From Chitinophagaceae bacterium (GTDB taxonomy: Bacteria; Bacteroidota; Bacteroidia; Chitinophagales; Chitinophagaceae): DNA of 10,048 nt. A model generated the notes under the pieces. That model did not search any database, was not told where the DNA came from, and saw nothing but the letters and a program-made list of their open reading frames with translations. Positions within the stretch are counted from its first letter, which is position 1. The number at the start of each line of letters is the position of its first letter. This document shows, piece by piece, positions 3,016 to 9,139 of the stretch. The stretch is taken from NCBI GenBank assembly GCA_023251285.1, contig JAHEZB010000037.1, positions 1-10,048 on the forward strand. The letters run 5' to 3'. The position numbers were made by a program, and so were the translations under genes.

Positions 3016-3483
3016 ATGAAACCTTCATCGATTAGTGAAATAAAAAAGGATCTTGAAAAACGTGATTCCAAAGAATTACTGGAATATTGTCTTCGCCTCG
3101 CCAGGTACAAAAAGGAAAATAAAGAGCTGCTGGCGTTTTTACTTTTCGAATCGGATAATGTTTCTGTTTATGTTGAAAATGTAAAACAGGAAACAGAACA
3201 ACAATTTGTGGAAATGAATAAAAACAATATTTATTTTATCAAAAAAAGTGTACGAAAAATATTGAGGTCAATCAACAAATACATTCGTTTTTCTTTATCA
3301 AAGCAAACAGAAGCGGAATTATTAATTCATTTTTGTAATTGCCTGGTCCGCTATTCAATCCCATTAAAAAAGAGCAGGCAATTAATGAATCTTTATGAAA
3401 GCCAACTCAAAAAAATTGATGCGGCTCTTTCCGTCCTCCATCCGGATTTACAATACGATTTTAAAAAACAACTCTTGACTTAA
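3016..3483 (+). CDS. Conserved-looking helical protein of unknown function
   Basis: A 155-residue, Lys/Glu/Leu-rich, probably all-alpha cytoplasmic protein. No signal peptide, membrane segment or catalytic motif is visible. The sequence alternates charged and hydrophobic residues in long helices: KELLEYCLRLARYKKENKEL near residues 19-38, then KKSVRKILRSINKYIRF near 76-92, then an aliphatic segment with FCNCL near 106-110. The C-terminal part LYESQLKKIDAALSVL (126-141) looks like a further amphipathic helix. It resembles hypothetical proteins I have seen in Chitinophagaceae, but I cannot name a family. The ATG at 3016 gives a natural start after an A/T-rich leader without SD. No GC-rich terminator follows the stop. 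Its transcript may therefore run into the micro-ORF RNA and end at the terminator at 3644-3672. Confidence 0.8.
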   Translation: MKPSSISEIKKDLEKRDSKELLEYCLRLARYKKENKELLAFLLFESDNVSVYVENVKQETEQQFVEMNKNNIYFIKKSVRKILRSINKYIRFSLSKQTEAELLIHFCNCLVRYSIPLKKSRQLMNLYESQLKKIDAALSVLHPDLQYDFKKQLLT

Positions 3484-3515: not shown

Positions 3516-3523
3516 TATCTTTA
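3516..3523 (+). promoter_or_regulatory. Candidate -7 element for the micro-ORF RNA
   Basis: TATCTTTA matches TAnnTTTG at all but the last base. The upstream -33 box is poor: TTG at 3501 is only 12 bases away. A start near 3530 would give a leader of about 22 bases before the ATG at 3552. Independent transcription is plausible but unproven. Confidence 0.4.
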
Positions 3524-3540
3524 ATTTTCATCAAATAAAA

Positions 3541-3547
3541 AGGAGGT
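3541..3547 (+). promoter_or_regulatory. Perfect Shine-Dalgarno sequence before the micro-ORF
   Basis: AGGAGGT within an A-run (A at 3537-3541), five bases from the end of GGAGG to the ATG at 3552. None of the other gene starts visible in this window has a GGAGG-like site; they have A/T-rich leaders. Strong SDs are rare in Bacteroidota, where the anti-SD end of 16S rRNA is masked on the 30S subunit by bS21, bS18 and bS6. That makes this site notable and helps choose the ORF start. Confidence 0.75.
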
Positions 3548-3551
3548 ATTC

Positions 3552-3596
3552 ATGCAATCTACAGATAGAACATGGATGCCTGTTCTAAATTTTTAA
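3552..3596 (+). CDS. Micro-ORF, 14 codons (leader-peptide-like)
   Basis: ATG to TAA encodes MQSTDRTWMPVLNF. It follows a perfect SD at ideal spacing and is followed 47 bases later by an intrinsic terminator, the layout of a leader peptide or a translated small RNA. It has no signal peptide character and is too short to fold as a domain. A 7-bp inverted repeat (TAGAACA 3566-3572, TGTTCTA 3581-3587) sits inside the coding region, so translation would disrupt this RNA hairpin. It has one Trp and no run of a single amino acid, so it does not look like a classical amino-acid attenuator. A nascent-peptide arrest role is possible through the C-terminal MPVLNF, but that is inference. I do not recognise the peptide. 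Confidence 0.55.
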   Translation: MQSTDRTWMPVLNF

Positions 3597-3643
3597 TTAG
3601 AAAAGGCTCCATTAAAATAATCTGAGACGCTTGCAGCGTCAAT

Positions 3644-3672
3644 AACCACTGGTTTAAACCGGTGGTTTTTTT
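3644..3672 (+). terminator. Strong intrinsic terminator
   Basis: AACCACTGGT (3644-3653), loop TTAA, ACCGGTGGTT (3658-3667): a 10-bp stem with a single G-U pair, running into seven T (3666-3672). It ends the micro-ORF RNA and probably also any readthrough from 3016-3483. Confidence 0.85.
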
Positions 3673-3784: not shown

Positions 3785-3814
3785 CACCTCAATTTTTAAT
3801 ACAAGCAATCGTTA

Positions 3815-3848
3815 AAGCCTTTCTGTTCCCAGAAAGGCTTCTTCTTTC
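3815..3848 (+). terminator. Perfect 11-bp hairpin, terminator-like
   Basis: AAGCCTTTCTG (3815-3825), loop TTCC, CAGAAAGGCTT (3830-3840), followed by CTTCTTTC, which is T-rich but interrupted by C. It may be a weak or conditional terminator, or an mRNA 5' structure upstream of the gene at 3992. No gene between 3672 and 3815 explains a terminator here. Confidence 0.55.
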
Positions 3849-3991: not shown

Positions 3992-4294
3992 ATGCGCACA
4001 AAAAACATTATTTCCGCATTATTAATTGCAATGTGCTTTTCATTGCTTACTCCGGTTTATGCTGCAAACGAAACTCCTGTAAAAACTGAAGTACCGAAAG
4101 AAGTGCGGGCACAACAAATTGAAAACCGGCTGATCGAAATCCGGCAAATGTCGAAGACAAATTTGACAAAATCTGAGAAAAAGGATCTACGGAAAGAAGT
4201 AAAAAGCCTGAAAAAAGAAGCGTCCACACAGGGAATTTATTTATCCATTGGAGCAATTATCATTATCATTTTATTGCTCATTCTTTTATTGTAA
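3992..4294 (+). CDS. Small exported protein with C-terminal membrane anchor
   Basis: A 100-residue protein. Residues 1-24 form a signal peptide (MRTK, hydrophobic core, cleavage likely after PVYA). About residues 37-78 are highly charged and likely to form an amphipathic helix or coiled coil, with IENRLIEIRQM and then KKDLRKEVKSLKKEA. Residues 81-100 are a hydrophobic helix of mostly Ile and Leu ending exactly at the C terminus. Predicted topology is a periplasmic helix anchored in the inner membrane by its tail. Similar short proteins ending in a run of Ile/Leu are, to my recollection, common in Bacteroidota and uncharacterised. The ATG at 3992 follows an A/T-rich leader without SD. It is convergent with the small membrane protein gene at 4363-4575 and shares its terminator. 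Function unknown. Confidence 0.8.
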   Translation: MRTKNIISALLIAMCFSLLTPVYAANETPVKTEVPKEVRAQQIENRLIEIRQMSKTNLTKSEKKDLRKEVKSLKKEASTQGIYLSIGAIIIIILLLILLL

Positions 4295-4316: not shown

Positions 4317-4350
4317 AAAAAAAAGCCCGTTTTTCAACGGGCTTTTTTTT
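4317..4350. terminator. Bidirectional intrinsic terminator between two convergent genes
   Basis: Eight A (4317-4324), GCCCGTT (4325-4331), loop TTTC, AACGGGC (4336-4342), eight T (4343-4350). The T-run on each strand serves the plus gene ending at 4294 and the minus gene ending at 4363. Confidence 0.9.
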
Positions 4351-4362
4351 TATAGAATGAAA

Positions 4363-6811: not shown

Positions 6812-8044
6812 ATGGCCACACAAATATTTACAAACATCAGTTTATTGGCAAATACGCAAGGCCATTCCGGCTTCGTTCGTGGTGATAAACTGGCGAGTCT
6901 GACATCAATAAAAGATGCTTACATCATTATTGAAGATGAAACAATTGCGGAAATGGATGTGATGGAAAATTTTCGATTTTCAAAAGGCAATTTTTCGGTT
7001 CCCGAGAATACGATCGTTATGCCCTGCTGGTGCGATAGTCATACTCATATTGTTTTTGCAGGAAGCCGTGAAGAAGAATTTATTGATAAAATAAAAGGTT
7101 TAAGCTATGCTGAAATTGCTGCGAAAGGCGGTGGAATTCTTAATTCTGCAAAAATATTAAATGCTACTCCTGAAGATGAGCTTTTTAATGCTGCATGGAA
7201 AAGACTCGAAGAAGTAAGCAAGCTGGGAACCGGGGCTATTGAAATAAAAAGCGGCTATGGATTATCAGTTGAGGGCGAATTAAAAATGCTTCGTGTGATC
7301 AAAAAATTAAAAGAAAAAAGCAGGCTGAAAATAAAATCTACTTTTCTGGGTGCACATACATTTCCTTTGGAGTACAAAGAAAATCATGCAAAATATATTG
7401 ACCTCATCATCCATGAAATGCTTCCCGTAATTGAAAGAGAAGAACTGGCGGACTATATAGATGTCTTTTGTGAAAAAGGATTTTTTTCTGCAGAAGAAAT
7501 GAAGATCATTTGCGAAGCGGGAAAAAACCATGCTTTAAAACCGAAGCTGCATGTGAATCAATTGAACAGTATCGGCGGCATCCAAACCGGAATTTCATTA
7601 GACGCTTTATCACTCGACCATTTGGAAACTTTGACGGAAAATGAAATGGAATTATTGGGAAAATATAAAGGTGCTTCTACCCTGCTTCCATCGGCGGCGT
7701 TTTTTTTAAGAATGCCGTTGCAACCGGCCAGAACCCTTATTAATGCCGGCGCTGCAGTTACTTTAGCTTCTGATTATAATCCTGGTTCTTCACCATCAGG
7801 CAATATGAATTTTATCATTTCTCTTGCCTGTATTCAAATGAAAATGCTGCCCGAAGAAGCGATAAACGCTGCCACAATCAACGGTGCCTGCGCAATGGAA
7901 ATTGAAAGTGATTATGGAAGCATTTCTATCGGCAAAAAAGCAAATCTTATATTTACAAAACCGGTGCCTTCGCTTGCATACCTTCCCTATTCATTTGGAA
8001 ACAACCTGATTGATAAAGTGATGATTGACGGTACTTTTATTTAA
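6812..8044 (+). CDS. hutI: Imidazolonepropionase (histidine degradation)
   Basis: Hydrolyses 4-imidazolone-5-propanoate to N-formimidoyl-L-glutamate, the third step of histidine breakdown, in the cytoplasm. It is a 410-residue amidohydrolase-superfamily protein of normal family length. Visible motifs are the metal-binding DSHTHIVFAGSR (His78, His80), AAKGGGIL (103-110), the substrate-binding KSGYGL (146-151), FLGAHTFP (178-185), KLHVNQ (245-250, His247), LDHLE (268-272) and ASDYNPGS (319-326, Asp321). His78, His80, His247 and Asp321 correspond to the metal ligands known for HutI enzymes, so the active site looks intact. The ATG at 6812 gives the expected N terminus; no SD precedes it. hutG follows 42 bases downstream, probably in one operon. 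hutH and hutU are not in the window. Confidence 0.95.
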   Translation: MATQIFTNISLLANTQGHSGFVRGDKLASLTSIKDAYIIIEDETIAEMDVMENFRFSKGNFSVPENTIVMPCWCDSHTHIVFAGSREEEFIDKIKGLSYAEIAAKGGGILNSAKILNATPEDELFNAAWKRLEEVSKLGTGAIEIKSGYGLSVEGELKMLRVIKKLKEKSRLKIKSTFLGAHTFPLEYKENHAKYIDLIIHEMLPVIEREELADYIDVFCEKGFFSAEEMKIICEAGKNHALKPKLHVNQLNSIGGIQTGISLDALSLDHLETLTENEMELLGKYKGASTLLPSAAFFLRMPLQPARTLINAGAAVTLASDYNPGSSPSGNMNFIISLACIQMKMLPEEAINAATINGACAMEIESDYGSISIGKKANLIFTKPVPSLAYLPYSFGNNLIDKVMIDGTFI

Positions 8045-8086
8045 ATTGAAAAATAATTTATTGAACTGTTTATAAACTTATGCTGT

Positions 8087-9139
8087 ATGCCAACAAACTT
8101 TAAACGACTTGACAAGAAAGATATCCAAATGCTTACGCGTCTGAGAAAGTATGAAACAAAACTGGGAGAAATAATTCTCTCAGATAGTACTACTGATTTG
8201 GAAAAAGCAATATCAGAAACAAGCGCGAAGTATATTGTTTTCGGAATTCCGGAAGACATCGGCGTAAAAGCAAACCTCGGAAAGGGCGGTGCAGATTCTG
8301 CCTGGTTCCCATTTCTTGATTCTTTTTTAAATATTCAGAGCAATGATTTTTTGAGCGGTGAAAATATTTTTATCGCCGGACATTTTGATTTTACAGACGC
8401 GCAAAAATTAATTAATGTAAATGCAGCAACCGATGAAGAAAAGATAACAGCGTACCGTTCCTATGTAAGTAAGATCGACGATGCAGTGGAAGAAATGGTA
8501 AAAATTATTACCCAAAATAAAAAAATTCCCATCATCATTGGCGGCGGCCACAATAATGCGTATCCTGCAATAAAGGGCTCTTCCAAAGGATTGTACAAAG
8601 CAGAACTGTTGCAACTTGCACAAATTAATTGCATCAATTTAGATGCACATACCGATTTTCGCCCTCCAGAAGGAAGGCATTCCGGGAATGCTTTTCGCTA
8701 TGCGGATGAGGACGGATATCTGAATAAATATTGTGTTATCGGCGTTCATGAAAATTATATCCAACAAAATATCTGGATAGATATTGTGAACAATCCCTTC
8801 ATTGATCTTATTTCTTACGAAGATATTTTTATTCACCAAAAAAGAAATTTTATAGAAGCTATTGCCCATGCGACATCTTTTACCGCTGATAATTTCACCG
8901 GTATAGAACTGGACCTGGACTCCATTGAAAATGTGTTGAGCAGCGCTTCCGCTCCATGCGGAATTTCAAGTTTAAACGCGCGGCAATACCTCAATTTTGC
9001 AGCCATCAGTTCAAGAGTCGCCTACCTGCACATCTGTGAAGGAGCAACAAAAACTGATTTTGGCGAAACCGATAATTCTACCGGAAAATTAATCAGCTAC
9101 CTTGTAAGCGATTTTATCAAAGCGCACTCAAAAGTTTGA
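8087..9139 (+). CDS. hutG: Formimidoylglutamase, arginase (ureohydrolase) family
   Basis: A 350-residue member of the arginase/agmatinase/formimidoylglutamase family, predicted to hydrolyse N-formimidoyl-L-glutamate to glutamate and formamide, the last step after HutI. The binuclear manganese motifs are all present: GGGHNN (152-157, His155), NLDAHTD (184-190, Asp186, His188, Asp190) and ELDLDS (274-279, Asp276, Asp278). RHSGN (197-201) and ICEGA (316-320) are further family-like segments. The N terminus MPTNFKRLDKKDI precedes a segment RLRKYETKLGE expected of this subgroup. The ATG at 8087 is the first in frame and leaves a 42-base gap after hutI. Substrate is assigned from the hutI neighbour; by sequence alone arginase or agmatinase activity is possible but less likely. 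No convincing GC-rich terminator follows. Confidence 0.88.
   Translation: MPTNFKRLDKKDIQMLTRLRKYETKLGEIILSDSTTDLEKAISETSAKYIVFGIPEDIGVKANLGKGGADSAWFPFLDSFLNIQSNDFLSGENIFIAGHFDFTDAQKLINVNAATDEEKITAYRSYVSKIDDAVEEMVKIITQNKKIPIIIGGGHNNAYPAIKGSSKGLYKAELLQLAQINCINLDAHTDFRPPEGRHSGNAFRYADEDGYLNKYCVIGVHENYIQQNIWIDIVNNPFIDLISYEDIFIHQKRNFIEAIAHATSFTADNFTGIELDLDSIENVLSSASAPCGISSLNARQYLNFAAISSRVAYLHICEGATKTDFGETDNSTGKLISYLVSDFIKAHSKV

Follow-up and report, generated by a model that had tools for sequence, protein, structure and literature searches.

Judged from its sequence, the segment at positions 3516-3672 of the window (the entire 10,048-nucleotide stretch of DNA analyzed here) is one member of an RNA family that carries its own promoter and terminator, and its leader is, by comparison with the rRNA of related genomes, complementary to essentially the whole 16S rRNA 3′ tail. 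The reading that accounts best for these properties is a stand-alone, ribosome-read RNA switch of approximately 145 nucleotides that captures 30S subunits whose 16S tail is exposed or reports on them, acting through ribosome binding and reading and not through its peptide; we give this joint reading about an even chance of being correct. A separate RNA gene with a longer match to the tail than rpsU would give the masked tail a second, non-protein client and would offer a direct way to ask whether cells sense ribosomes poor in bS21. It also looks like a rare case of a reading frame whose conservation serves translation itself and not the product.

No description of this RNA was recognized in the literature covered, which comprised titles and abstract openings, and its novelty is provisional since subscription papers, preprints, and supplements lay outside that scope. 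Word searches of two structured-RNA surveys found neither Chitinophaga nor Bacteroid in the main text of one (PMC11109978) and, in the text available for the other, a single occurrence of Bacteroidetes, referring to an endosymbiont partner (PMC6429828). Rfam gave no match at the element in the window at E values up to 1 and, in eight relatives, a single 25-bit match below the gathering threshold at the 3′ end of one locus (L020).

Architecture and distribution of the RNA family

The unit consists of a promoter box, the leader TTTCATCAAATAAAAAGGAGGTATTC, an ATG, a 14-codon open reading frame (ORF), several stems, and an intrinsic terminator (Table 1). The AGGAGGT core of its Shine-Dalgarno (SD) sequence lies at 3541-3547, followed by the ATG at 3552 and the TAA stop codon at 3594-3596, and the transcript probably starts at about 3527-3530. 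Across 128 copies the -7 box has the consensus T87 A83 N N T85 T82 T78 A77 (percent) at fixed spacing, and the motif TAnnTTTA/G stands at a constant distance before CA(C/T)CAAA. The 147-nt RNA from 3526 to 3672 has a predicted folding energy of -43.5 kcal/mol against a mean of -24.2 for shuffled sequences (z = -5.5), a value equaled by none of 200 shuffles.

All of the elements named in a preliminary description of this DNA, namely the -7 box, AGGAGGT, the ATG, the 14-codon ORF, a 6-bp hairpin, and the terminator, were recovered, and the inverted repeat that it had placed in the ORF corresponds to a hairpin present inside and around the ORF. Absent from that description were the inclusion of the SD in a 16-nt stretch perfectly complementary to the relatives' 16S tail, the complementarity of codons 7-10 (to 11 in relatives) to the strand carrying the SD and AUG, the pairing of the ORF with sequence 3′ of it through P1 and P2, and the conservation of the reading frame and not of the peptide.

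Table 1. Features of the RNA unit, with positions in the window
Feature	Sequence	Position	Strand	Basis
-7 promoter element	TATCTTTA	3516-3523	+	Sequence; conserved at fixed spacing in copies
Extended SD	TAAAAAGGAGGTATTC	3536-3551	+	16-nt perfect complement of relatives' 16S rRNA 3′ tail
Micro-ORF, 14 codons plus TAA	MQSTDRTWMPVLNF	3552-3596	+	Start kept in 127/127 full copies
Helix B (SD-closing), 5′ strand	AGGTATTCATG	3544-3554	+	Fold of nascent 5′ part; RNAalifold on alignment A1
Helix B, 3′ strand; internal anti-SD/anti-AUG in codons 7-10	CATGGATGCCT	3571-3581	+	Folds and shuffle comparison
P1, 5′ strand	CAGAT	3562-3566	+	Fold and covariation
P1, 3′ strand	ATCTG	3620-3624	+	Fold and covariation
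P2, 5′ strand, common to helix B	ATGGA	3572-3576	+	Fold and covariation
P2, 3′ strand	TCCAT	3608-3612	+	Fold and covariation
P3 and extension	GCCT/AGGC, TTCTAA/TTAGAA	3578-3607	+	Fold; covariation
Hairpin H4, 6 bp, sequence variable among relatives	GACGCTTGCAGCGTC	3626-3640	+	Fold
Intrinsic terminator and T-run	AACCACTGGTTTAAACCGGTGGTT	3644-3672	+	Fold; stem covariation

Matches to the RNA were obtained by blastn at E < 1e-8 in 29 other genomes among 196 relatives. A covariance model built from 30 copies, from which an alignment that had misaligned TCCAT (A2) was excluded, matched 98 of 394 genomes sampled from the family of the window, which the named matches indicate to be Chitinophagaceae, and 34 of its 101 sampled genera; genomes scored as lacking the RNA are provisional in these counts, the first look having scored seven candidates per genome. 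At the order level the model matched 34 of 396 sampled genomes, 30 of them in the same family, three in a sister family (G118, G184, and G241), and one (G180) by a weak partial match that retains the 5′ letters without an ORF and was excluded from the counts. Five of 395 genomes sampled from the class were matched, two being the window and G023; the three weak matches among them (L063-L065) lacked SD and ORF and proved false on inspection, and the covariance model found no convincing member of the family in the other class genomes sampled. An exact-pattern scan returned 44 named loci, in Chitinophaga (among the named matches C. rhizophila, C. chungangae, and C. barathri), Pinibacter, Ferruginibacter, Niastella, Terrimonas, Flavitalea, Paracnuella, Ginsengibacter, Pollutibacter, and metagenome-assembled genomes, and a pattern that assumed the peptide codons of the window found zero matches in genome contigs. 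No mobile copies were detected in phage and plasmid collections searched with one copy as query, nor in viral contigs searched with one exact pattern.

Counting was based on 135 of 183 loci that went to the model, most of the remainder being repeats of the same places; five distinct loci outside the counts (L045, L046, L074, L096, and L099) all carry the SD and a 15-codon ORF. The 138 matches comprised 131 distinct ones, which were reduced to 127 full copies by removal of two truncated copies (L134), one at a contig edge (L088), and the partial match in G180 (L183). These copies share descent, so the counts given here and below are not independent. Most genomes hold a single match, whereas two occur in G299 and G241, and G1055 has one full and two truncated copies. 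The latter (L134; G1055:C191:8500-10300) form an intact copy followed by two lacking promoter, SD, and AUG, all within a tandem repeat of approximately 180 bp. In G299 (L135; C1:4222500-4224700) about 1 kb separates two full units of similar sequence, and the terminator of the second is decayed; in G180 (L183; C164:302-400) the conserved leader CACCAAACAAAAAGGAGG stands without an ORF before a different terminator, possibly a remnant or a chance likeness.

The extended Shine-Dalgarno sequence, the 16S rRNA tail, and rpsU

The 16S rRNA 3′ end reads GGCTGGAATACCTCCTTTTTA in the RNA-positive family members G023, G103, G412, and G073, in G041 and G048, which had no match to the model, and likewise in G118 of the sister family. 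Its complement is TAAAAAGGAGGTATTCC, of which the window carries 16 bases consecutively, giving a predicted SD/16S-tail duplex of -21.7 kcal/mol. The 16S tail of the window's genome is extrapolated from these relatives because no 16S 3′ end was found in its own assembly or genus; a presumed 16S sequence, GGATCACC, matched no 16S gene. In 126 of the 127 full copies, the stretch preceding the AUG has an uninterrupted match of 13-16 bases to the tail of relatives, GAATACCTCCTTTTTA; over 129 scored rows (the full copies plus one contig-edge and one truncated copy) the match lengths were 14 (59 rows), 16 (37), 15 (29), 13 (2), 8 (1), and 4 (1). Perfect 9-mer SDs close to an ATG are not rare as such, with 3-26 sites per genome and 137 in total in 12 genomes versus 124 in a reversed control. 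This site stands out by its longer match, its conservation, and its structure, and not by the SD alone.

The closest known parallel is the autoregulation of rpsU, which encodes bS21. According to the report describing it (PMC9976891), the 16S tail is held by bS21, bS18, and bS6, an extended SD lets ribosomes without bS21 read rpsU, and residue 54 of bS21 was mutated as Y54A; that report also states that approximately half of the Chitinophagales satisfy the criteria for such control and that in Flavobacteriales rpsU is typically the sole gene with an exceptionally strong SD. Residue 54 was Tyr in all 40 bS21 proteins checked, and masking of the tail in the window's family is taken from this residue together with the findings in other Bacteroidia. 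The RNA shares with the rpsU unit an extended SD whose complementarity covers much of the 16S tail (9-13 bp in an rpsU-type unit), here measured against the tail of relatives, and so could be readable by ribosomes with an exposed tail. Unlike rpsU, it codes for neither bS21 nor any other gene, its 14-codon ORF being unrelated and rpsU lying elsewhere (G000:C70), and it occupies a separate locus with its own terminator, matches the tail over a greater length (13-16 nt), has a fold that closes on itself, and carries an ORF of 13-15 codons. The letters KPSV are common to bS21 and many of the micro-peptides, a likeness that is probably coincidental because the micro-ORF codons are fixed by RNA pairing.

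Comparison of rpsU leaders outside the genus of the window, from 38 RNA-positive and 29 RNA-negative genomes, revealed a median duplex energy of about -16 kcal/mol, versus -21.5 kcal/mol predicted for the RNA family, and a related sequence, AAAGGAGGT, in 31 of the 67. There, an rpsU SD at least as strong as -13 kcal/mol was present in 30 of 38 RNA-positive and 26 of 29 RNA-negative genomes (weaker where the RNA occurs; p = 0.054, Mann-Whitney test on energies), and the presence of the RNA shows no clear relation to the strength of the rpsU SD. Within the genus of the window the rpsU SD is weak or absent, with medians of -3.45 kcal/mol in 12 RNA-positive and -6.0 kcal/mol in seven RNA-negative genomes, the weaker values accompanying the RNA (p = 0.012, kinship ignored). 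The extended SD of the RNA is kept in this very genus, a further difference from the rpsU system, and, on the narrower sensor reading put forward below, the RNA may have taken over there from the rpsU SD loop. The loci concerned include the rpsU of the window's genome (L253 on G000:C70) and, among others, L274-L283, although the rpsU SD is retained in many further genomes of the family. For other Bacteroidia we take the 16S tail to be GAACACCTCCTTT, and a search for an analogous unit built on its complement, AAAGGAGGTGTTC, gave matches in five of 395 genomes, none of them a comparable micro-ORF RNA.

Two competing predicted folds and a possible ribosome-read switch

Structure prediction points to two mutually exclusive folds, a closed form in which helix B would hide the SD and AUG and an open form, built from P1, P2, and P3, in which both would be free. 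In the open form (fold A), codons 4-5 and 7-9 pair with sequence 3′ of the stop through P1 (CAGAU/AUCUG) and P2 (AUGGA/UCCAU), and P3 forms around the stop codon. In the closed form (fold B), GGAGGUAUUCAUG pairs with CAUGGA.GCCUUC in the ORF, so that the strand CAUGGA is common to both. The computed energies of the two forms differ by a median of 1.0 kcal/mol, fold A being the lower in 44 of 125 copies. The predicted fraction of unpaired SD core has a median of 0.008 in the nascent 5′ part versus 0.25 at full length, and in the window it changes from 0.17 to 0.33, a modest opening.

The support for the open form is uneven along its length. In an alignment of 103 sequences that had been fitted to the model, 95.6% of fold A cells were paired and 22 of 25 pairs had changed on both sides, above every slid or shuffled control. 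The 310 double-change cells comprised 262 in the terminator stem (97.4% of cells paired, 9/9 pairs double-changed), 34 in P3 (6/6 pairs), and 14 in P1 and P2 together, namely eight in P1 (92.7% of cells paired in alignment A3, 4/5 pairs) and six in P2 (96.1%, 3/5 pairs). For P1 and P2 alone these 14 cells compare with 1.8 in shuffles, and two slid versions also reached 14; on the unfitted alignment A1 the count was 4 versus 0.7 in shuffles, with some slid versions equal or higher. Covariation of P1 and P2 is hence modest, and weak on A1, for which RNAalifold selected the helix B core, four P3 pairs, and the terminator, and not P1 or P2. Helix B itself has zero compensatory double changes across copies because its SD strand is invariant. 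Nine of the ten positions of its core pair in 117-125 of 125 copies and the remaining one is unpaired in 120 of 125, and in 98 of 126 copies no more than 5 of 100 shuffles equaled its complementarity, whereas a control stretch 3′ of the stop did as well (no more than 2 of 50 shuffles) in only 2 of 126.

The stop codon falls within the 3′ arm of P3 in 90 of 101 rows of alignment A3 and 32 of 33 rows of A4, and all of the 10 TAG and eight TGA stops in this arm in A3 keep a standard pair (C-G or U-G) at the changed letter. In the remaining copies, including the window, it lies before that arm, mostly in the loop, as it does in the window. Riboswitches and RNA thermometers are switches that sequester an SD, and the RNA resembles them in its two exclusive folds of nearly equal computed energy, one of which hides SD and AUG. 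It differs from them in having no evident ligand domain or downstream gene, the gated ORF being its whole coding part.

Combined with the complementarity to the 16S tail, these features suggest how the proposed ribosome-read switch might operate. The nascent RNA would first close its own SD, which would then be opened either by completion of the full-length transcript or by a 30S subunit whose 16S tail is exposed, such as one lacking bS21; no 30S other than one with its tail free would outcompete helix B. The ribosome would initiate, run over 13-15 codons, and stop at P3, melting P1-P3 and keeping fold A apart, and the RNA would therefore trap or report ribosomes with a free tail. Its output might be the titration of such ribosomes, including away from rpsU mRNA, or the freeing of the UCCAU..AAAAUAAUCUG segment to pair in trans, titration or buffering being the more likely of the two. 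A narrower version, in which the RNA is a dedicated trans-acting sensor of ribosome state that detects 30S subunits with an exposed anti-SD (bS21-deficient or immature) and buffers or signals defective ribosomes through a bistable fold flipped by transit of a throw-away ORF, is put forward tentatively, with odds somewhat against it. The preliminary description had proposed a sensor or decoy for the exposed anti-SD alongside an attenuator of the gene at 3992; the former, on the sequence data, fits best, and the latter found no support. It had also made its reading depend on conservation of the SD, the frame, and the stems in relatives, and such conservation was found, so that this condition did not refute the reading.

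The strongest rival, which we consider possible though distinctly less probable, is a trans-acting base-pairing sRNA with UCCAU..AAAAUAAUCUG as its seed, in which the micro-ORF and SD would gate exposure of the seed by ribosome occupancy and no functional peptide would be made. The free-standing layout with its own promoter and terminator and the varied neighbors agree with such an sRNA, as do the AAAATAATCTG segment, parts of which are nearly invariant, and its largely single-stranded state in the closed fold of two copies (L002 and L009). The same segment is, however, accounted for by P1 and P2 pairing, and the antisense strand of the RNA gave only a weak, gapped local alignment to one region of rpsU.

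The micro-ORF and the genomic neighborhood

The micro-ORF is preserved as a frame far more strictly than as a peptide. With the AUG never lost from a full copy, frame 0 is open to the stop in all 127, compared with 59 and 56 for the other two frames, and the ORF has 15 codons in 106 copies, 14 in 18, 13 in two, and 11 in one, which places 126 of the 127 at 13-15. Stop codons are TAA in 100 copies, TAG in 18, and TGA in nine, and the single copy with a truncated ORF (L017) is also the single one with a broken SD core. Among 85 distinct standard ORFs, pN/pS was 0.91 in the ORF frame versus 0.68 and 0.94 in the two shifted frames, and entropy was equal across codon positions (0.66, 0.70, and 0.68 bits). 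Compensated frameshifts, in which the register between AUG and CATG was changed and then restored between CATG and the stop, occurred in at least two lineages, one of five copies and one represented by L026; a third case returned by the script (L180) is ambiguous, being readable as substitutions too. The five-copy lineage retains TCTACAG..TATTCATGG at the nucleotide level and has its peptide altered from STD..SW to SLQ.IHG. Selection thus appears to act on translation to a fixed stop and hardly on the product, and with frame and stop conserved and peptide letters not, the unit looks like an RNA switch read by ribosomes.

These data bear directly on whether the unit is a short mRNA for a functional peptide of 13-15 residues, an improbable reading. 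Conservation of the SD, AUG, frame, and stop and the recurrence of SW and PSV residues would suit it, but the pN/pS of 0.91, the even entropy across codon positions, and the compensated frameshifts, with nucleotides kept where the peptide is swapped, disfavor it, and the PSV codons fall on the SD-pairing strand and on P3. The dual-function sRNAs SgrS/SgrT and VcdRP (PMC4021124 and PMC8672173) are likewise free-standing RNAs with a small ORF; here no conserved functional peptide was found, and the SD region is the most conserved part.

Less probable still is a role in rRNA maturation or quality control, in which the RNA would pair with the 16S 3′ end and translation of its ORF would test 30S competence. 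Complementarity that spans the whole tail over 13-16 nt, beyond the need of an ordinary SD, would be expected of such an RNA, but it stops where the tail apparently ends and does not continue along the precursor, and no rRNA-related neighbor gene is shared, as judged from similarity clusters only.

The RNA lies between an ORF that ends at 3483 and one that starts at 3992, neither of which matched Pfam. Over 54 loci and the window (several of the 54 being the same place twice, and four further loci not having been oriented by the motif), neighbors differ between genera and are common within the genus of the window and its near relatives. The order of the small flanking ORFs (3016-3483 and 3992-4294) is kept in close relatives (clusters c2 and c4), and scattered neighbor similarity occurs across loci (cluster c0 in L041 and L048, c31 in L054). 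From its sequence context the RNA is taken to be a stand-alone unit. Leader-peptide or uORF attenuators and free sORF motifs (PMC11109978; peTrpL, PMC7298713) also have a short ORF overlapping stems, and the fthC motif (PMC11109978) has its stop codon within a stem, whereas the present family has no consistent downstream gene, and its terminator and ORF stems are not mutually exclusive. The idea that the unit is a cis attenuator or leader-peptide regulator of a neighbor such as the gene at 3992, put forward in its peptide-dependent form in the preliminary description, is the least probable of all: the ORF followed by hairpins and terminator has an attenuator-like order, but the reading was rejected because neighbors differ between genera, and it is further opposed by the 320 nt between the terminator and 3992, the conserved terminator stem, the lack of purifying selection on the peptide, and the position of all modelled stems clear of the terminator, with which none competes.

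Two further terminator-like hairpins were noted by eye at 3814-3840, between the RNA and the gene at 3992, and at 4321-4352. Farther along the window, at 6812-9139, an amidohydrolase-family ORF is followed by an arginase-family ORF, a pair that we take to be reminiscent of histidine degradation.
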